From the NCBI GenBank assembly GCA_013817245.1, contig JACDDA010000002.1, forward strand, positions 1 through 64,000: a DNA stretch of 64,000 nucleotides, read 5' to 3'. The notes below the pieces were generated by a model, which did no database searches, had not been told where the DNA came from, and worked only from the letters and a program-made list of their open reading frames with translations. The translations under genes and the position numbers were made by a program. Positions 9,174 to 18,321 of this stretch are shown here, piece after piece (position 1 is the stretch's first letter; each line of letters begins with the position of its first letter). Source of the stretch: Gammaproteobacteria bacterium. Lineage in GTDB: Bacteria; Pseudomonadota; Gammaproteobacteria; HTCC5015.

Positions 9174-11225
9174 TTATAAAACTACCAGCGCATCTAAGGC
9201 TAAAACGCCATTAGGTAATGCGCGCACCGGATTAATATCAAGTTCTTTTATTTCTGGGTGTTCACACAACAAACGCGAAACGGATACTAACGCTTGCGCT
9301 AACGCTTTTTTATCTTTCGCTGGCGCACCACGCCAACCGTCTAACAACGCTTTGCCGCGCAAACTTTCAATCATTTCTTCTGCATCAACAATATCTAATG
9401 GCGCCAAGCGCGTGCAAACATCTTTAATCGCTTCTGCTTCCGTACCACCCAAACCTAATAATACGGTGGGGCCGAATACGGGATCTTGCAAACCACCAAT
9501 AATTAAATCAACGCCACTGCTCGCCATTTCTTCTACAAAATAACCGCGTTTTTTGTTGCTGCTCTCGATCGCATCAATTGCATCTAGGGCTTTGTTAAAT
9601 TGTTCTTCATTGCTGATTTTTAAATGTACGCCGCCTACATCGGATTTATGCGTAATGGTTCCGTCTAATACTTTTACTACTAAAGGCGGACGAAATTTTG
9701 AAAATGCAACTTGTGCTTCAGCGCGGGTCCAACAGGCTGCGGAATGCGGAGTTTTAAAACCGTATTCATTTAATAATGTTTTACCTTGATGCTCATCTAA
9801 AGCATTACCAATATCCACTTTTAATGCGGCTTTGGGTTTAGCTGTTTCGCTTTTGCCATAACGACTACGACGATGCGCATATTTTGCATCATTAACTAAT
9901 GCAATCACGGCGCGCGCGGCGCGTTCAGGTGATGCAAACGCCGGCACACCTAAATTATTTAATGCTTTTAAAGTAGGATCTATTTCTTCAGGCAAACCTT
10001 GCGTGCCAAATATTAAGGGTTGTTTAACAACACCTTGAGCTTTTGTGAAAACATCCACTGGATCAATGGCGGCAGCCTCGGCAATCGCGTAGGTGATGGT
10101 TGCATCAATCGCGGGATCTTGATTAATGATTTGCAAAATTTCAGCAAACGCAGGCGACGGACGACCCGTGTCGACCGGATTTTTAATATACGTCAGCGGC
10201 GGCAAATGTTCGGCGATTTTTTTAACCGTAGCATCAGACAAATCTGGCATTTCAACGTGTTGTGATTTTAATTGATCCAAAATCAACAAAGCAGGACCTG
10301 CTTGGCCAGTTAATAATGCAATGCCGGGATTTGCTTTTGGTGTTAAACGTCGACGCGCTAATGCGCTTACTGCATCGGCTAATTCATGCGTGCTATCAAC
10401 CACTACTGCACCGGCTTGTTTTAATGCAGAAATTTTTAAATCATAAGAGCCAGCCAAGTTGCCAGTGTGCGATTGCGCAAATGCGCCCACATCAGCGCGA
10501 CCAATCGTAATCGCAACCACAGGTTTTTTCAGTGTGGCTTTGCTAATTGCATTAAATAATTTGCGGCCATCAGCAATGCCTTCTAAGTGCAACGCGATGG
10601 CTTTGGTTGCAGGATCATCCGCTAAAAATTCAATCACGTCCGCCGCATCAACATCCACAGCATTGCCTAAACCTACGGATAAACTAACGCCTAAACCTAA
10701 ATGATGAATTAAAAATGCAACGGTTAAATTCACGCCGCCACTTTGCGCCACAACTGCGATATCGCCTGCGGCAATTTTATCGATGCCAGGCACGAAACAA
10801 ACTGATGCGCCTACTGCTGGACGTAAAAATCCTGAGGTGTTAGGGCCGAGCAAACGAATGTTGTTGTCATGACAAATTTTTAAAATATCATTTTGTAATT
10901 TCAAACCTTCTTCGCCGGATTCACCAAAACCACCGCTGACAATTAACGCTGCGCCTAATTTTGCTTTTGCGCCATCTTGTAATGCGCCCACGCAGGCAGC
11001 AGCAGGAATCGCAAGTAATGCTAAATCAACTGGCTGACCAATTGCTTCTAATGATGGATACGCTTTGTGGCCGAGAATTTCATCGGCTTTTGGATTGATC
11101 GGATACACTTTGCCTGGAAAATTGGCTAACGCTTTTACCGCTTCATAACCCGCTTTGCCGGGTGACGCTGATGCGCCGATGATGGCGATGGATTTAGGAT
11201 TAAATAATCTAGCTAATGTCGTCAT
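9174..11225 (-). CDS. ADP-forming acyl/aryl-CoA ligase (single chain, alpha-beta fusion)
   Basis: This 683-residue NDP-forming CoA ligase has a CoA-binding Rossmann domain first (IAIIGASASPGKAGYEA). The succinyl-CoA-synthetase-like domain carries SHTGNLAGS, whose His253 is at the family's phosphohistidine position, followed by a linker. The C-terminal ATP-grasp domain (VVKVLDGTITHKSDVGGVHL, and ELDINPV near the end) completes it. The family makes acyl-CoA from an acid, ATP and CoA, releasing ADP. As last gene of the gentisate operon it most likely activates an aromatic acid, but this is inferred from context; acetyl- or other short acyl-CoA ligases share the architecture. Confidence 0.85.
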   Translation of the reverse strand: MTTLARLFNPKSIAIIGASASPGKAGYEAVKALANFPGKVYPINPKADEILGHKAYPSLEAIGQPVDLALLAIPAAACVGALQDGAKAKLGAALIVSGGFGESGEEGLKLQNDILKICHDNNIRLLGPNTSGFLRPAVGASVCFVPGIDKIAAGDIAVVAQSGGVNLTVAFLIHHLGLGVSLSVGLGNAVDVDAADVIEFLADDPATKAIALHLEGIADGRKLFNAISKATLKKPVVAITIGRADVGAFAQSHTGNLAGSYDLKISALKQAGAVVVDSTHELADAVSALARRRLTPKANPGIALLTGQAGPALLILDQLKSQHVEMPDLSDATVKKIAEHLPPLTYIKNPVDTGRPSPAFAEILQIINQDPAIDATITYAIAEAAAIDPVDVFTKAQGVVKQPLIFGTQGLPEEIDPTLKALNNLGVPAFASPERAARAVIALVNDAKYAHRRSRYGKSETAKPKAALKVDIGNALDEHQGKTLLNEYGFKTPHSAACWTRAEAQVAFSKFRPPLVVKVLDGTITHKSDVGGVHLKISNEEQFNKALDAIDAIESSNKKRGYFVEEMASSGVDLIIGGLQDPVFGPTVLLGLGGTEAEAIKDVCTRLAPLDIVDAEEMIESLRGKALLDGWRGAPAKDKKALAQALVSVSRLLCEHPEIKELDINPVRALPNGVLALDALVVL

Positions 11226-11266: not shown

Positions 11267-11911
11267 TTATTCGGCATCCGGCTGCGCTTCAGGCGCGGCT
11301 TGTTTGAATGCGTCAAACTGCACTAATGCGTCATTGATGCGCGACAAATGCGGATAAGCATTCATGTCACATTTAAAACGCTTCGCGTTATAAACTTGCG
11401 GCACTAAACATACGTCGGCCATAGTAATGGTATCGCCAAAACAATATTTGCCTGCGTGTCGACTGACTAATTCTTCTAAACCTATAAAACCTTCTGTGAC
11501 CCAATGTTGATACCACGTGTTCGCGGTATCTTCGTCATGTTTCAAAGTGGTTTTTAGATAATTTAAGACGCGTAAATTATTGAGCGGATGAATTTCGCAA
11601 GCAATGGCTTGTGCCATGGCGCGTACGTGCGCGCGGGCAACAATATCCGTCGGTAATAATTTCGCAGTGTTGGGATACGCTTCATCGAGATATTCAATGA
11701 TCGCGAGTGATTGTCCTAACGCATTGCCGTTATCTTCTAAAGCCGGCACTAAACCCATGGGATTTAAAGCAAGATATTCTGGTTTTTTATGTTGACCACC
11801 ATCTTTACGAAAATGCACAAAATGGGGTTCGTAACTTAAACCTTTATGATTCAGCGCAATGCGCACGCGATATGCGGCGGAGCTACGAAAGAAAGTATAG
11901 AGTTTTAACAT
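11267..11911 (-). CDS. Zeta-class GST, probable maleylpyruvate isomerase
   Basis: This 214-residue protein has a thioredoxin-fold N-terminal GST domain with the zeta-class signature SSAAYRVRIAL (about 10-20), NPMGLVPAL and QSLAIIEYLDE, and a helical C-terminal domain. Zeta GSTs isomerise maleylacetoacetate or maleylpyruvate using glutathione. No homogentisate gene is nearby, while gentisate dioxygenase and fumarylpyruvate hydrolase are in the same operon. Conversion of maleylpyruvate to fumarylpyruvate is therefore the likely step. Sequence alone does not separate the two substrates. Confidence 0.85.
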   Translation of the reverse strand: MLKLYTFFRSSAAYRVRIALNHKGLSYEPHFVHFRKDGGQHKKPEYLALNPMGLVPALEDNGNALGQSLAIIEYLDEAYPNTAKLLPTDIVARAHVRAMAQAIACEIHPLNNLRVLNYLKTTLKHDEDTANTWYQHWVTEGFIGLEELVSRHAGKYCFGDTITMADVCLVPQVYNAKRFKCDMNAYPHLSRINDALVQFDAFKQAAPEAQPDAE

Positions 11912-11956: not shown

Positions 11957-12385
11957 CTAGTCTTCTAGTTCAACAAATCTTTTTATGAAGGCTTCTGGTA
12001 AAGGTAGCGCTACTAACTTACCCACATTTACAGGATCGTTTATTCCCCAAAAACGGGTTTCAGTACCTTCAACGGCCACGACACCTTGATTGATAACGCG
12101 ATGTTGTAATTCAAAGGTGCGCTCGCGCCATGATGTTAGTCGTGTTTCGATGGTTAGCGGTTCGCAATAACGACAAGGGGCGCGAAATTTAGCATTCACA
12201 TCTACTAATGGAATGCCCACCGTGTTGTATTGTTGCATTGCTTGCGGAATAGGCAAATCGATAGCTGCAAAATAAGCCCAGGCCGCACGATCAAACCAAC
12301 GGAAATAATTTGGATAAAACAAAATGCCGGCGTTATCGCATTCGCCCCATTCGGCAGTGAAGGTTTGTATTTGAGTGCGTTTCAT
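11957..12385 (-). CDS. Hotdog acyl-CoA thioesterase, 4-hydroxybenzoyl-CoA thioesterase type
   Basis: This 142-residue single-hotdog protein has the active-site segment WGECDNAGILFYPNYFRWFD (about 13-32). Asp17 sits at the position of the catalytic Asp17 of Pseudomonas 4-hydroxybenzoyl-CoA thioesterase. The family hydrolyses aryl- or acyl-CoA esters in the cytoplasm. Placed between CoA ligase and gentisate dioxygenase genes, it probably frees gentisate from gentisyl-CoA so that ring cleavage can follow. Substrate is inferred from context only. Confidence 0.85.
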   Translation of the reverse strand: MKRTQIQTFTAEWGECDNAGILFYPNYFRWFDRAAWAYFAAIDLPIPQAMQQYNTVGIPLVDVNAKFRAPCRYCEPLTIETRLTSWRERTFELQHRVINQGVVAVEGTETRFWGINDPVNVGKLVALPLPEAFIKRFVELED

Positions 12386-12443: not shown

Positions 12444-13133
12444 TTAAACGATTTTGGTAACTAACATTTCGTCGATGCCTTCAATACCACCAGTAATGGT
12501 ATCGCCAACTTTTACAGCGCCAACGCCAGCAGGTGTGCCGGTGTAAATTAAATCGCCAGCTTGTAATTTGAAAAATTTCGATAAGATAGAAACGATTTCC
12601 GCTGTATCCCAAATTAACTCTTTCAAATCCGCTTCTTGACGGGTTTCATTATTTACTTTCAACCAAATCTTGCCAGATTCTAAATGACCAACTTGGCTAA
12701 CAGGATAAATTTTGGTGATCGGTGCAGATAAATCGAAAGCTTTGCCCGCATCCCATGGACGACCTTGTTCACGCGCAACTAATTGTAAATCACGACGTGT
12801 TAAATCGTTACCAACGGCATAACCATATATATAGTCTTTGGCTTTTTCGATCGGCACATTCACGGCTTCTTTACCAATCGCAATGACTAATTCAATTTCG
12901 TGATGAAAGTTTTCGGTTTCAGTTGCATAAGGAACATCAACATTGTTTGCAACAACTGCATCAGCTGGTTTGCAAAAAAAGAATGGCGGATCGCGCTCAG
13001 GATCTTTGCCCATTTCACGCGCATGCGCAGCGTAGTTACGACCCACGCAATAAATGCGATGGACAGGAAAACGATCTTTAGTGCCAGCAACTTCAACGCT
13101 GGGAATTTCAGTGGCGGGAACAACGTAACCCAT
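12444..13133 (-). CDS. Fumarylacetoacetate hydrolase family, probable fumarylpyruvate hydrolase
   Basis: This 229-residue protein is the length of the short FAH-family enzymes. Key motifs are YCVGRNYAAHAREMG, FFFCKPADAV, the metal-binding HHEIELVIAIG (ExE), GNDLTRRDLQ and YTGTPAGVGAV. NagK-type fumarylpyruvate hydrolases have this size and split fumarylpyruvate into fumarate and pyruvate. The operon position, between the dioxygenase and the isomerase, fits the last step of the gentisate route. Isomerase or decarboxylase activity as in other FAH proteins cannot be ruled out. Confidence 0.87.
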   Translation of the reverse strand: MGYVVPATEIPSVEVAGTKDRFPVHRIYCVGRNYAAHAREMGKDPERDPPFFFCKPADAVVANNVDVPYATETENFHHEIELVIAIGKEAVNVPIEKAKDYIYGYAVGNDLTRRDLQLVAREQGRPWDAGKAFDLSAPITKIYPVSQVGHLESGKIWLKVNNETRQEADLKELIWDTAEIVSILSKFFKLQAGDLIYTGTPAGVGAVKVGDTITGGIEGIDEMLVTKIV

Positions 13134-13264: not shown

Positions 13265-13831
13265 TTAAAAGACATAGAACGTCGCGTTGCTCACTGACAA
13301 CGGCCAACGACCTGCAGTAAATAAACGTAAACGCGCCATGAAAGGATGCCCTTCGCCTGCATCATTCAACATCGCTAAGGCTGCTTGAAAACACGCTTGT
13401 GACGCCGAACCCGCTGCCACTCGACTTAAGTTTTGATCTGCAACACCCATACGCGCTGCTGCTAATGCGGCATGGCCATGCACATGTTCCGCCGACATTT
13501 CATTTACTTCAGTAAGCAACATCAACAAAGCGTATTCGCCGATTGTTTTGCTGGCTTTTTCAAATAATTCTTTGCGTTGTTTCTCTTCCGCTTTCCACCA
13601 AAATTGATCCCATTCAGGATCCATCGTGATGCGCCGCGCTTCCGACCAATTCGCTACTGCTTTTACACTGTACGAAGCAAAACCAATTGTTTTGATGTAT
13701 TGCTCAGCATCGTGTTGCTCGGTTTCAACCATAGGCTCGCCTACTGCTGTAAACCAACTGGCTTCATTAATATCATCGTATAAGCGCTGCAATTTTTTTT
13801 GCTGCGCGGCAAGATCTAACACTGCTGGCAT
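13265..13831 (-). CDS. Unrecognised helical protein, candidate partner subunit of the diiron oxygenase
   Basis: This 188-residue mostly helical soluble protein is rich in Ala, Glu and Trp (PEWDQFWWKAEEKQRKELFEK is the most striking stretch). It is encoded 30 bp after the gentisate dioxygenase gene. I do not recognise a family. It has no clean pair of ExxH motifs as in PaaA, so an iron-free structural subunit, as PaaC is to PaaA, is a reasonable guess. A single AEHVHGH segment near residue 114 might bind metal. Function is open; operon membership is its strongest evidence. Confidence 0.6.
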   Translation of the reverse strand: MPAVLDLAAQQKKLQRLYDDINEASWFTAVGEPMVETEQHDAEQYIKTIGFASYSVKAVANWSEARRITMDPEWDQFWWKAEEKQRKELFEKASKTIGEYALLMLLTEVNEMSAEHVHGHAALAAARMGVADQNLSRVAAGSASQACFQAALAMLNDAGEGHPFMARLRLFTAGRWPLSVSNATFYVF

Positions 13832-13861
13832 ATCAACTCGCTTAATTCGTTAGAGATATTA

Positions 13862-14920
13862 TTAACGTGAGACGGGGCTTTTTTCTTCGCGCCATATACC
13901 AATTTTTTCTTGCACTACACGATCAGAATAACTAAACAACACCGCATCTTCTGGCACTTCGTGATAATGGAAAGTCCAATTTGGAATGGTGAATACATCA
14001 TGCGCTTTCCAATGGAATGTCTGATCGCCAATCACCGTTTTACCGCTGCCTTCAACAACAACATAAACCGTTGCATCAGTAGAACGATAGGGCAAAGTTT
14101 TAAAATCTTTTGGCAATAACTGCATGCTGGTTGCAATGCTTGGCATTGCCCAACCACCCGTAATTGGATTGACGTATTTTAATTTAATGCCGTGCCACGG
14201 ATCCCATTCCGCCGCGTTACGCAAGGTTTCTAAGGCTTCGCGGGTGCGGGTGTACGGATAATTAAAGACCGGTGAATTTAAATTTTTTGGTTTGTAATCA
14301 ATCGGCAATAAACCTGAGCCGTAACGCGCTAAAGCATCACCTTCTGGACGACTAACATCTTGCATTGGCTTACCTAAATCTTCTGCGAAACCGGCGCCGA
14401 AGAAATGCACGAGTTCAATATCTAAGCCATCTAACCAAATAACAGGTTCGTTTACTTCGCTGCCGTGATCGTGCCATGTCCATGCGGGCGTAATAATAAA
14501 ATCGCCTGGATGCATAATGGTTTTTTCGCCATCAACCGCGGTGTATGCGCCGCTACCTTCGATAATAAAACGTAAAGCCGATTGCGAATGACGATGGCTT
14601 GGCGCAACTTCACCGGGCAAAATTAATTGCAGCCCAGCATATAACGAATTAGTGATTTTAGAATCACCACGGAATTCTGGATTTTCTAAAATCAATACGC
14701 GACGAATCGCTTCTTCTGCGGTAATTAAGGTGCCTGCTTCCATCAAATGTTTACGCAGCACACTGTAATCCCAATGCGCAGGTTTGCCTTTGATGATCGG
14801 CGTGGGCGTGACCAATGCGTGCAGAATTTCCCACAGCGGAGTCAGGTTATCCGCGGAAATTTTGTTGTAGTACGACTTACGCACCTGTTGCATTTCTTGA
14901 TCAGCGGGCTTGTTCATCAC
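13862..14920 (-). CDS. Gentisate 1,2-dioxygenase
   Basis: This 352-residue bicupin dioxygenase cleaves gentisate between C1 and C2 to maleylpyruvate using Fe(II) and O2. The first cupin holds the iron ligand pattern HRHSQSALRFIIEGSGAYT (His109, His111) and a later His150 (TWHDHGSE). The second cupin (about 268-340) carries VYVVVEGSGKTVIGD without a full ligand set, as in the family. The length is typical (about 340-370). The neighbouring isomerase and hydrolase genes complete the pathway to fumarate and pyruvate. Start at the first of two Met; either is possible. Confidence 0.92.
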   Translation of the reverse strand: MMNKPADQEMQQVRKSYYNKISADNLTPLWEILHALVTPTPIIKGKPAHWDYSVLRKHLMEAGTLITAEEAIRRVLILENPEFRGDSKITNSLYAGLQLILPGEVAPSHRHSQSALRFIIEGSGAYTAVDGEKTIMHPGDFIITPAWTWHDHGSEVNEPVIWLDGLDIELVHFFGAGFAEDLGKPMQDVSRPEGDALARYGSGLLPIDYKPKNLNSPVFNYPYTRTREALETLRNAAEWDPWHGIKLKYVNPITGGWAMPSIATSMQLLPKDFKTLPYRSTDATVYVVVEGSGKTVIGDQTFHWKAHDVFTIPNWTFHYHEVPEDAVLFSYSDRVVQEKIGIWREEKSPVSR

Positions 14921-14987
14921 ACTACTCCTGTTTCGGTTGTATTCTGCACGTCATCAATTACTGACATTACTTCATTTTGGAAAACTA

Positions 14988-15695
14988 TTACGCCGCTAAT
15001 TTCACTTCTGGCATTACTAAACCATATTTATCAGCAGCTTCTTTAGCGCGAACTAAAAAGTCTTCCACCATTTCTTCGTTCTTACGTTGCTTAATGCCCC
15101 ATTTACGGTACATGTCGTTGTTCTTAGAATTTGGTGCGCCAAAAAACGGTGGTAACAATGGGATGTAACGATTCATCGCTTCTTGTACCGCTTTTCTGCC
15201 TTCTTCGGTTTTGATCAATTCACCAACGAATTCAACGCCGAAGTCATGATGGAAACGTTCTTCCGGCATCGTTGAACGCGCTAAATTGCGCAAAGGATGG
15301 AATGGGCAATGCAACAAATCTTCTACTTGCAAAATTTCTGCTAAGTCAGCAAACATTTTGATCACGCAGAATTCAGCCCAACTGGTTAATTCAAATTCAA
15401 AAATAGTGTTGTGCGCTTTATCGCGACCTGGTTCTAACTGTGCTTCAGGAATGCCGATTTTGTCGCCGAGTTCACGGAAACGCACGTGATGCGCATATTC
15501 TTCCATCGCTACACGGCAGGTTAACCATTTAGCATACGGAGTAGGTGCAAGTGCAATAGCAGGTTCATCAAATGCGCGCGCGCCTTGTAATTCATTTACT
15601 GAATGGCTGCGAACGATTTTGCGAACGGCATCTTTGAATTCTTGTGGTGCGCTTTCGAATTCTTCGATAGTTTTAATTTCGATTTGTGCTGACAT
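14988..15695 (-). CDS. PaaA/BoxB-like diiron oxygenase (candidate aryl-CoA hydroxylase)
   Basis: This 235-residue ferritin-like four-helix protein is related to the phenylacetyl-CoA epoxidase catalytic subunit PaaA. Two ExxH iron motifs are visible, MEEYAHH (Glu66, His69) and MPEERFHHD (Glu146, His149), 80 residues apart. PaaA has ligands Glu72/His75 and Glu155/His158, almost the same spacing. Glu35 and Asp117 fit the remaining two ligands. The family oxidises the ring of CoA-bound aromatics, so with a CoA ligase, a reductase and a thioesterase in the operon this is the likely ring hydroxylase or epoxidase. It is shorter than PaaA (about 310 residues), and no paaBCD genes are present. Confidence 0.82.
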   Translation of the reverse strand: MSAQIEIKTIEEFESAPQEFKDAVRKIVRSHSVNELQGARAFDEPAIALAPTPYAKWLTCRVAMEEYAHHVRFRELGDKIGIPEAQLEPGRDKAHNTIFEFELTSWAEFCVIKMFADLAEILQVEDLLHCPFHPLRNLARSTMPEERFHHDFGVEFVGELIKTEEGRKAVQEAMNRYIPLLPPFFGAPNSKNNDMYRKWGIKQRKNEEMVEDFLVRAKEAADKYGLVMPEVKLAA

Positions 15696-15727: not shown

Positions 15728-16666
15728 TTAAACGACAGGTTCGTAATTGAATGCGTCGAGATCCGTTGATAGATCAACAAACTTCGGCACAAAGTCTTCT
15801 TTCATTTGATCCGCCAGCTGCGCTGCTGTCCATTCACCTTCGGCTGGTTTCAGCACGCAGGCAATCGGACGTGGTTGCGAGAACAAAAATATTTCGCGGC
15901 CACGTGCGCCAAACAATTGCCCAGAAATAGCTTGTGCTTCAGGCGAACATAAAAATGCAACGAAGCCGCCCACATGCGCAGCATCAATTTTTTGCGCACG
16001 GGTTTTGTATTCACCTTCGGGCACTAAATCGGTTACGCGGGTTGCCGCAAACGGACAAATTGCATTCGCTGTAACATTCGAACGACTCATTTCTTGCGCG
16101 GTGACGCGTGTCAAACTAAACAAACCGCCTTTTGCACTGGCGTAATTGGAAGTGCCCACGTTACCGTATAAACCCGCCGTCGATAACATGTTAACAACTC
16201 GTCCCCATTGATAACTTTCGCCGCCGCGACCCGACTTTGCTTGATCACGTAATACGGGCGTCGCTGCATTTAATAAATAATACGCAGCCGATAAATTATT
16301 TTGCATAACGCGATCCCAATCGGCGGGATTACCTTTAAACAACATGGCATCACGCAAAATTGCGGCGTTGTTAACAATGATGTCAACGCCGCCAAAAGTG
16401 TCTAGCGCTAATTTCACCGCAGCTTGCGCAGCAGCTGGACTCGCCATATTTTGCGTAAACGCGATCGTGTTCGCGCCTAATGTTTTTGCTAATGCTTGTG
16501 CTACGTTCGCATCTTCGCCGTCACCATTTACGGCGGCGCCGTTATCCGCAATAACAACACTCGCGCCCCGCGCATGTAATGCTTCAACAATGGCTTTACC
16601 AATGCCGCGCGCGCCACCGGTAACAATCGCCACTCGGCCTTGTAATGATTTTGTTTCTGTTGTCAT
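15728..16666 (-). CDS. Short-chain dehydrogenase/reductase
   Basis: This 312-residue classical SDR has the cofactor motif TGGARGIG (16-23), NNAA (99-102) and the catalytic Ser162, Tyr175 and Lys179 (YASAK). The chain is longer than a plain SDR, with a tail of about 60 residues (RPIACVLKPAEGEW onward) like that in 3-hydroxyacyl-CoA-dehydrogenase-type SDRs. It overlaps the reductase gene by 4 bases and lies 33 bp before the diiron oxygenase gene, so the three are co-expressed. It may oxidise a dihydrodiol- or hydroxyacyl-CoA intermediate, which is inference only. Confidence 0.85.
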   Translation of the reverse strand: MTTETKSLQGRVAIVTGGARGIGKAIVEALHARGASVVIADNGAAVNGDGEDANVAQALAKTLGANTIAFTQNMASPAAAQAAVKLALDTFGGVDIIVNNAAILRDAMLFKGNPADWDRVMQNNLSAAYYLLNAATPVLRDQAKSGRGGESYQWGRVVNMLSTAGLYGNVGTSNYASAKGGLFSLTRVTAQEMSRSNVTANAICPFAATRVTDLVPEGEYKTRAQKIDAAHVGGFVAFLCSPEAQAISGQLFGARGREIFLFSQPRPIACVLKPAEGEWTAAQLADQMKEDFVPKFVDLSTDLDAFNYEPVV

Positions 16667-17697
16667 GCTGCGCCACCTAATGCGGTTTGTTCTGCTTGCG
16701 TATAAAACGCATCGGCGTGAATTTTTTCTTTAATCACACCTAATTCGCCACACAGTGCGGTAGCCGCATTTACCATCGGTGGAGGCCCGCATAAATACGC
16801 GCGAAACTCCGCCATGTCTTTAAAGTCGTGACGTACTGCATCGGTTACAAAACCGGTGCGGCGTGTTGTTGCGGCACTGGGTTCGGATAACACCGGCACA
16901 TATTTAAAATTCGGAAATTGCTTAGCCAAATTTTCAAAATGTTCAACTAAATATAAATCACGTTCGTCACGTGCACCGTAATAAAAATGTATCGGCTGGG
17001 TTGCGCCCGCGTGTAATGCGGTTTCAACAATCGACATGATCGGCGCTAATCCTGAACCACCTGCGATACCAATAATAGGGCTGCTGTCTTTTTCACGATA
17101 ATAAGCAGAACCATTGGGGCCTTTGACGCGCACCAGATCACCGACGGCTAATTTTTCTGCAACATAATTACTGAGCAGACCGTTCGGTACTTGCCGAACG
17201 TGAAATTCTAACTCTGCTTCCTCTGGACGATTTGCCATTGAATATTGTCGTTGCGGAATATCGCGCCCCGGCACTTCAAGATCCGCAAATTGACCCGCGG
17301 TAAAGGTATAAGGGCCACCACCATCGATACGAATTTTGATGCGCCAAATATCATGCGTCATCTGATCTTTGGCGGTAATCGTGCAACGCATAATGCGTAA
17401 GGGATGTACCACACGATCTTCGGATTCTAACCAGGCAATTTCGCAATCGCTCCAAGGCACTGCGCGGCAACATAAAACCAAACCTTCATCTTTTTCGGCT
17501 TGGCTAAGTGCAAATTCAGAATAAGACGCCATTTCGACTTCACCGCTATATAAACGGGACTTACACGCCGCGCAATTACCAGCACGGCAATCAAACGGAT
17601 AATTCACGCCTTGCTCGAGCGCAGCATCCAGAATAGTCTGACCCATCTTGACGGTAATGGGCTGCTCAACTTGTCGAATTTTTACTGAAAAGCTCAT
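16663..17697 (-). CDS. Ferredoxin/FAD/NAD(P) oxidoreductase, electron supplier for the diiron oxygenase
   Basis: A reductase of about 344 residues. The N-terminal plant-type 2Fe-2S domain has CRAGNCAAC (CX4CX2C, Cys37, 42, 45) and a fourth Cys near 76. Then come an FAD-binding domain (RQYSMANRP) and a NAD-binding domain (GIAGGSGLAPIMSIV, CGPPPMV). This order matches class IB reductases of the phenol hydroxylase, benzoate dioxygenase and BoxA type. As first gene of the operon it likely passes electrons from NAD(P)H to the PaaA-like protein. I chose ATG at 17697 because GGAAG lies 6 bases upstream; an in-frame start at 17754 would run through the operator. Confidence 0.9.
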   Translation of the reverse strand: MSFSVKIRQVEQPITVKMGQTILDAALEQGVNYPFDCRAGNCAACKSRLYSGEVEMASYSEFALSQAEKDEGLVLCCRAVPWSDCEIAWLESEDRVVHPLRIMRCTITAKDQMTHDIWRIKIRIDGGGPYTFTAGQFADLEVPGRDIPQRQYSMANRPEEAELEFHVRQVPNGLLSNYVAEKLAVGDLVRVKGPNGSAYYREKDSSPIIGIAGGSGLAPIMSIVETALHAGATQPIHFYYGARDERDLYLVEHFENLAKQFPNFKYVPVLSEPSAATTRRTGFVTDAVRHDFKDMAEFRAYLCGPPPMVNAATALCGELGVIKEKIHADAFYTQAEQTALGGAA

Positions 17698-17713
17698 TGC
17701 ACTTCCGCTGCGA

Positions 17714-17740
17714 TATATTGTAAGGTACCCATACAATATA
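17714..17740. promoter_or_regulatory. Perfect inverted repeat, likely MarR operator of the gentisate operon
   Basis: TATATTGTA (17714-17722) and TACAATATA (17732-17740) are perfect 9-bp arms with a 9-bp spacer (AGGTACCCA). The repeat lies between the divergent reductase and MarR genes, immediately downstream of and overlapping the predicted -10 box, so a bound repressor would block initiation. AT-rich dyads of this size are typical MarR-family sites. Confidence 0.75.
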
Positions 17741-17762
17741 GACGGTAAGCCCAAACTGTCAA
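17735..17762 (-). promoter_or_regulatory. Promoter of the CoA/gentisate operon
   Basis: On the minus strand TTGACA (17762-17757) is followed after 16 bp by TATATT (17740-17735). The -10 box is inside the right arm of the inverted repeat. Transcription would start near 17728 and leave about 30 bases of leader before the ATG at 17697. Confidence 0.6.
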
Positions 17763-17835: not shown

Positions 17836-18321
17836 ATGACGGATAAGCCCAGCAAATCACTTAATAAATCCCTTAATAAACCGGGAGACAAAACCCATTA
17901 CGGGATTCTGCCGTCTTTATTAGGATTTCAAGTGCGTCGCGCTCAGTTTGCCATGTTCCAGCATTTTCAAAAATACATAGAAATGACCGATATCACGCCT
18001 AGCCAAACCGGTGTTCTCGTTTTGGTCGGTGAAAATCCTGGCATTAGCCAAGTAGCGCTGGCTAAAGCCATCGGCATCGAACGCGCCAGTCTCGGCGAAG
18101 TCATCGGGCGTTTTGAAAAACAAGGTTGGATTACCCGCAAAGAAGCACCTTGGGATAAACGCTCACTTGCGGTTTATTTAACCGAGGCCGGCGAAAAATT
18201 AGTAAAAGAACTGCTGCCGGCTATTCAAGCGCATGAAGAACTTTTATCGAATAACTTCACAACGGAAGAACGCGAAACCTTAATTCATTTGTTGCGCCGC
18301 TTAGCCGATAATTTCGATTAA
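17836..18321 (+). CDS. MarR-family regulator, likely repressor of the gentisate operon
   Basis: This 161-residue protein has a winged-helix core (ITPSQTGVLVLVGENPGISQ, then VALAKAIGIERASLGEVIGR) and the family's dimerisation helices at both ends. It is divergent from the nine-gene aromatic operon and separated by a short region with a perfect dyad. MarR repressors of aromatic catabolism usually respond to the acid or its CoA ester; the ligand here is unknown. A second MarR in the window (31742-32191) is of the same subfamily. The N-terminal 20 residues (repeated SLNK) are not conserved and the true start may be later. Confidence 0.87.
   Translation: MTDKPSKSLNKSLNKPGDKTHYGILPSLLGFQVRRAQFAMFQHFQKYIEMTDITPSQTGVLVLVGENPGISQVALAKAIGIERASLGEVIGRFEKQGWITRKEAPWDKRSLAVYLTEAGEKLVKELLPAIQAHEELLSNNFTTEERETLIHLLRRLADNFD

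Follow-up and report, generated by a model that had tools for sequence, protein, structure and literature searches.

The 1,2-phenylacetyl-CoA epoxidase PaaABCE opens a route in which the aromatic ring is cleaved and its product is then passed to beta-oxidation. In its catalytic subunit from Escherichia coli, PaaA, the iron ligands are E42, E72, H75, D126, E155 and H158, and PaaA is reported to be insoluble without its partner PaaC (PMC4498308). The benzoyl-CoA epoxidase BoxB/BoxA represents a second diiron oxygenase system acting on an aryl-CoA, as is proposed here for the locus under study, and likewise operates with no PaaC partner; its component BoxA carries two [4Fe-4S] clusters (PMC4498308). 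A short PaaA-like chain, SSO1313, is also available from Sulfolobus solfataricus as a structure (PDB 4mud).

In the window, the stretch of 64,000 nucleotides of gammaproteobacterial DNA that was analysed, a 235-residue PaaA-like protein is encoded on the minus strand (positions 14988 to 15695), where an earlier note on this DNA had placed it. Its assignment as a diiron oxygenase subunit is based on a PF05138 match, predicted fold, conserved iron ligands and clade membership. The protein matches Pfam PaaA_PaaC (PF05138) at 8e-19 with 68.3 bits, above the gathering cut-off of 28.5, and the NCBIfam PaaA equivalog (TIGR02156) at 4.6e-21 with 75.1 bits, below the curated cut-off of 280. The two ExxH motifs said to lie 80 residues apart are E66-x-x-H69 and E146-x-x-H149, with exactly that spacing, and alignment indicated that all six E. 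coli PaaA iron ligands are retained. Each of the corresponding residues, E35, E66, H69, D117, E146 and H149, is the same throughout 17 PaaA-like sequences and is matched by the identical residue in 15 aligned PaaA sequences, a conservation across relatives which excludes a chance origin of the motifs. At position 62, all 17 members of the PaaA-like clade have V where 15 of 15 PaaA sequences have K (K68), the residue proposed to act as a lysine bridge according to the title of the E49Q K68Q mutant structure and the text of PMC4498308; electron delivery or the chemistry itself may therefore differ in this clade. Four further positions near the ligands (H70, K113, E120 and E125) are fixed in the PaaA-like clade and different in PaaA.

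The AlphaFold model of the PaaA-like protein (pLDDT 90.2) matches PaaA (PDB 3pw8; TMq 0.85) and SSO1313 (TM 0.82/0.86), with further structural matches to PaaC, BoxB and aldehyde-deformylating oxygenase. SSO1313 resembles it as a short, 235-residue PaaA-like chain, although the two share only 18% identity over the structural alignment, whereas BoxB, at approximately 470 aa, gives only a weak sequence match (E 0.18-1.1). In the tree, the PaaA-like proteins form a clade of their own, apart from both PaaA and PaaC (SH-aLRT support of 100). A short PaaA-like protein that adjoins a radical SAM protein, observed on an Alteromonas plasmid together with a MaoC-like dehydratase and in Tistrella with PaaI-like and Rieske-type genes (loci L032:8956-11311 and L033:4991-7690), is a weakly supported sister (81) of this clade. 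Tandem pairs of adjacent, divergent PF05138 proteins of approximately 240-280 aa were also seen at two loci (L025 and L027), and in the tree these fall outside both PaaA and PaaC.

The PaaA-like gene belongs to an operon which runs from 17754 down to 9174, with all genes on the minus strand and gaps of -4 to 131 bp. The first gene (16663 to 17754) encodes an NAD(P)H reductase of the BenC/MmoC type with an N-terminal [2Fe-2S] ferredoxin domain followed by FAD and NAD domains (PF00111, PF00970 and PF00175); it scores 246 bits against NCBIfam BenC, which is below the cut-off, and, since homologue matches begin near residue 17-20, the ATG near 17697 is probably its real start. Next is an SDR oxidoreductase of 312 aa (15728 to 16666; PF00106, 7.6e-38), hydroxyacyl-CoA dehydrogenase/FabG-like, whose homologues (39-59% identical) adjoin the PaaA-like gene in related operons. 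The PaaA-like gene is followed by those for gentisate 1,2-dioxygenase (13862 to 14920; TIGR02272, 547.9 bits, above the cut-off of 442.1), a 188-residue protein here termed p188 (13265 to 13831), an FAA-hydrolase family protein that is probably a fumarylpyruvate hydrolase (12444 to 13133; PF01557, 1.1e-53) and whose homologues from several related clusters share 49-60% identity with it, a hotdog acyl-CoA thioesterase (11957 to 12385; PF13279, 4.7e-15), a maleylacetoacetate/maleylpyruvate isomerase of the GST family (11267 to 11911; TIGR01262, 297.8 bits, above the cut-off of 171) and, after a gap of 41 bp, an ADP-forming acyl-CoA synthetase (9174 to 11225; PF13549, PF13607 and PF13380) which is proposed to be the aryl-CoA ligase. 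The thioesterase probably acts on gentisyl-CoA: its D17 and D32 correspond by sequence to the active-site residues known for the 4HBT class I group, of which the Bacillus halodurans gentisyl-CoA thioesterase is a member (PMC516016). A divergent MarR-family regulator is encoded upstream on the plus strand (17836 to 18321; PF01047, 8.1e-13). Together these genes specify a complete gentisate pathway that also has CoA activation and a thioesterase, and no description of the operon was found in the open-access literature on gentisyl-CoA, on PaaA with gentisate or on 3-hydroxybenzoyl-CoA.

The window system shares with PaaABCE the catalytic fold, the six iron ligands, a pathway based on CoA esters and an NAD(P)H reductase with a [2Fe-2S] domain. 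In contrast to PaaABCE, it includes neither PaaB nor PaaC: a search of the window genome found no PaaC, the PaaA-like protein being its single PF05138 protein, a profile search of the same genome found no PaaB (PF06243), and PaaB was also absent from 17 of 19 other PaaA-like carriers tested. The oxygenase chain, at 235 aa, has no C-terminal extension and carries V in place of K68, the ferredoxin domain of the reductase is N-terminal rather than C-terminal as in PaaE (PMC4498308), and the product branch leads to gentisate instead of ring opening and beta-oxidation. p188 had been regarded as the only partner available to the oxygenase, a view which no longer holds given the ferredoxin-type reductase and the SDR in the same operon; nor is p188 adjacent to the PaaA-like gene in the window, the gentisate 1,2-dioxygenase gene lying between them.

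Our leading interpretation, to which we accord slightly less than even confidence, is that of an aryl-CoA oxygenase which feeds gentisate, with p188 as its probable structural or assembly partner. The ADP-forming synthetase would produce the aryl-CoA, for which salicylyl-CoA (2-hydroxybenzoyl-CoA) and 3-hydroxybenzoyl-CoA are the simplest candidates because a single oxygen atom would then be needed, benzoyl-CoA requiring two; neighbouring CoA ligases did not single out one substrate. Via the N-terminal-ferredoxin reductase, NAD(P)H would supply electrons to the diiron site of the PaaA-like protein, and this protein, judging from its conserved iron ligands and fold, would oxygenate the ring. 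The SDR may act on the oxygenated intermediate or perform a related oxidation, after which the thioesterase would free gentisate, and the dioxygenase, isomerase and FAA hydrolase, each recognised by family, would convert this to fumarate and pyruvate through standard chemistry. p188 would take over part of the structural task of PaaC/PaaB as a non-catalytic adaptor or assembly factor that binds the PaaA-like chain and steadies either the chain itself or its contact with the reductase. What the operon indicates is a net hydroxylation of the ring that yields gentisate, and the term "epoxidase" applied in the earlier note is best considered putative. The salicylyl-CoA 5-hydroxylase SdgC is a flavoprotein and not a diiron enzyme. 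The SdgC route of Streptomyces WA46, in which an aryl-CoA is converted to gentisyl-CoA and then to gentisate (PMC6460240), follows the same sequence of intermediates as that proposed here.

p188 was correctly noted as an unrecognised 188-residue frame; it is located on the minus strand, and searches of Pfam, NCBIfam and the PDB returned no family match by sequence or profile. It is considered to represent a new family with an RhsI2-like predicted fold and, on the basis of model, synteny and tree, is proposed to be an accessory or structural partner. Its AlphaFold model (pLDDT 91.3, pTM 0.88) consists mostly of helices, with a short pair of strands at the C-terminus, and the only clear structural match is the immunity protein RhsI2 (PDB 8cm0 and 9t38; VIA Z 11.7 over 142 residues, 3.7 A), the next unrelated chain scoring a VIA Z of 4.0. 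p188 differs from RhsI2 in sharing only 16% identity with it, in having no sequence-profile match to it and in its genomic setting, and the common predicted fold does not show a common function. RhsI2 is a protein-binding protein, which by analogy would fit, without proving, an adaptor role. W26, F27, L170 and G174 are the only invariant residues in a diverse p188 set, so that a conserved metal site is unlikely, and the lack of any invariant acidic or His residue across the wider family fits a non-catalytic role. The relationship to PaaC that had been thought worth seeking by profile was not found (hhalign probability 0.2%), and homology of p188 to PaaC, PaaA or the PaaA-like proteins is rejected, with profile comparison probabilities of <1%. 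Ferritin-like structures were absent among the best Foldseek/VIA matches of the model, which leaves room for families not listed there, nor did a haem-oxygenase-like diiron fold emerge clearly, AetD and UndA appearing only as noise (probabilities of 0.01-0.03).

Operon sampling covered Pseudomonadota, within which the PaaA-like clade is mostly alphaproteobacterial. A profile search located the gene in 22 of 385 sampled Alphaproteobacteria, and one alphaproteobacterial family, f232, has relatives with 62-65% identity in 46 of 75 genomes. Close relatives were not found in 368 other sampled genomes of the window's class, and both the PaaA-like gene and p188 are absent from the window's relatives in its own order (four genomes, including that of the window). 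Plasmid searches returned only remote PaaA-type relatives (25-28% identity) and no p188 match, the viral contigs searched yielded no matches, and the only p188 hit of a genome contig scan (L001) arose by chance in an unrelated protein of Prevotellaceae. The f232 loci have the order MarR / reductase - SDR - PaaA-like - p188, with MarR at the same place in 20 of 20 of them and in many other loci; a gentisate dioxygenase above the cut-off is encoded in all 13 f232 genomes tested, unlinked to the oxygenase operon. Other families mostly share the window order (L141-L144, L146-L150 and others), and FNR-SDR-PaaA-like-(GDO)-p188, where GDO is gentisate dioxygenase, recurs in many alphaproteobacterial families. 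A frame resembling peptidase C26 (gamma-glutamyl hydrolase type) was recognised by eye from translations at L152, L214 and L218; it adjoins the gentisate dioxygenase gene in f232 genomes and is near a reductase-p188 pair in L152.

p188 might have proved to be missing from most related operons. It is instead beside the PaaA-like gene in 30 of 31 f232 genomes examined, and, from coordinates, the two genes are within approximately 1.2 kb of each other, with at most one gene between them, in 19 of the 22 alphaproteobacterial genomes identified by profile. In two of the remaining three, p188 is on another contig, while the oxygenase operon of the third (G829, L202) has no p188. In G979, with p188 on another contig, the oxygenase contig ends near a dioxygenase gene and the p188 contig begins with one (L181/L204); because both break at the dioxygenase, they may form a single locus. 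One f232 genome, G822, has the oxygenase operon with no p188 beside the oxygenase. With p188 start codons in high-GC genomes picked by homology, a 4-bp overlap of the oxygenase stop and p188 start was seen in 13 of 28 f232 loci. At L073, L075 and L079, an insert of approximately 690 bp, which looks to encode a PIN-domain toxin-like and a small antitoxin-like protein, separates the otherwise coupled genes.

The p188 family extends beyond the oxygenase, being present in 78 of the 385 sampled Alphaproteobacteria, approximately 57 of which carry p188 relatives and no PaaA-like gene, many of them between lolA and xth. The gene preceding p188 is often that for gentisate dioxygenase and not the oxygenase gene, and members of a sister subfamily, which have no PaaA-like gene in their vicinity, either adjoin gentisate dioxygenase or lie in the lolA-xth interval. 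The paralogue between lolA and xth (exonuclease III) seen at L153, L154 and L156-L160 (approximately 5.7-6.8 kb) is covered by no Pfam or NCBIfam family, and L152 and L169 carry a reductase-p188 pair near lolA and xth with neither a PaaA-like nor a gentisate dioxygenase gene adjoining. In an unrooted tree of 63 p188 members, obtained by a short search and supported by SH-aLRT only, a branch with support of 99 parts most oxygenase-operon members from the lolA-xth members. Its 23-row side comprises 20 oxygenase-operon members, the window, L181, which is dioxygenase-linked and has the oxygenase on another contig of its genome, and L152, which is beside the reductase only; the other side holds all lolA-xth members, most dioxygenase-only members and a single oxygenase-operon p188 (L141). 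Of 22 oxygenase genomes, 18 carry the oxygenase-side subfamily, against 1 of 363 others (Fisher p 4e-26, uncorrected for phylogeny). A p188 subfamily therefore tracks the oxygenase, and its history may still be that of a neighbourhood passenger. The earlier suggestion of a new structural subunit of a simplified epoxidase is upheld insofar as PaaB and PaaC are lacking and p188 is a conserved companion; p188 relatives with no PaaA-like gene nearby, and the G822 and G829 oxygenases with no adjoining p188, argue against an exclusive subunit.

Ranking close behind the structural or assembly partner reading, and a real if lesser possibility, is that p188 assists the gentisate branch (the dioxygenase or later steps) or is a passenger of the lolA-xth neighbourhood, where the operon is often found, with the PaaA-like protein acting as a homo-oligomer with the reductase alone. 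This would account for the gentisate dioxygenase-p188 pairs with no adjoining PaaA-like gene (L151, L155, L166, L173, L182, L191, L197 and L201), for lolA-p188-xth arrangements with no catabolic gene in many genomes and for the several full operons directly upstream of xth (L142, L145, L146, L190, L196 and L205). It is more difficult to reconcile with p188 following the oxygenase, with no dioxygenase gene between, in f232, L145, G1151 and L185, with the frequent overlap of oxygenase and p188 codons in f232 and with loci that keep the oxygenase-p188 pair in the absence of xth, as f232, the window and several others do. The separate position of most oxygenase-linked p188 in the tree, and the presence of both p188 kinds in one genome (G1149; L198 and L199), likewise argue against it.

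It is unlikely that the PaaA-like protein, instead of yielding gentisyl-CoA directly, forms an epoxide or dihydrodiol of benzoyl-CoA or a hydroxybenzoyl-CoA which the SDR re-aromatises before thioester cleavage. The SDR adjoins the oxygenase in the oxygenase loci read, and the relatives PaaA and BoxB do form epoxides (PMC4498308), but weak PF05138 matches in BoxB-length frames suggest candidate BoxB proteins in several oxygenase carriers, in which case a second benzoyl-CoA epoxidase would be superfluous. That p188 is an immunity-type protein unrelated to the pathway, as its best structural match (RhsI2) and a weak Pfam Imm5_like match (PF21805; best 0.0077) in two p188 relatives might suggest, is highly improbable, since none of the regular neighbours of p188 was recognised as a toxin gene, p188 is firmly linked to catabolic genes, and the window p188 has no sequence-level match to RhsI2 or Imm5_like, the latter giving no match anywhere in the window genome.

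Returning to p188 as a structural or assembly partner, the insolubility of E. coli PaaA without PaaC means that a clade free of PaaB and PaaC raises the question of what stabilises the oxygenase and by which route electrons reach its iron. We advance, as a tentative and less secure extension, the possibility that diiron aryl-CoA monooxygenases include a new class whose PaaA-like chain is held by an unrelated adaptor, the RhsI2-fold p188, in place of PaaC/PaaB. Such an enzyme would give many Alphaproteobacteria and, perhaps through transfer, this gammaproteobacterium access to gentisate by way of CoA esters. If p188 is the stabiliser, studies could turn to a simpler aryl-CoA oxygenase, and there would be a first functional lead for a protein family that is common in Alphaproteobacteria and uncharacterised.
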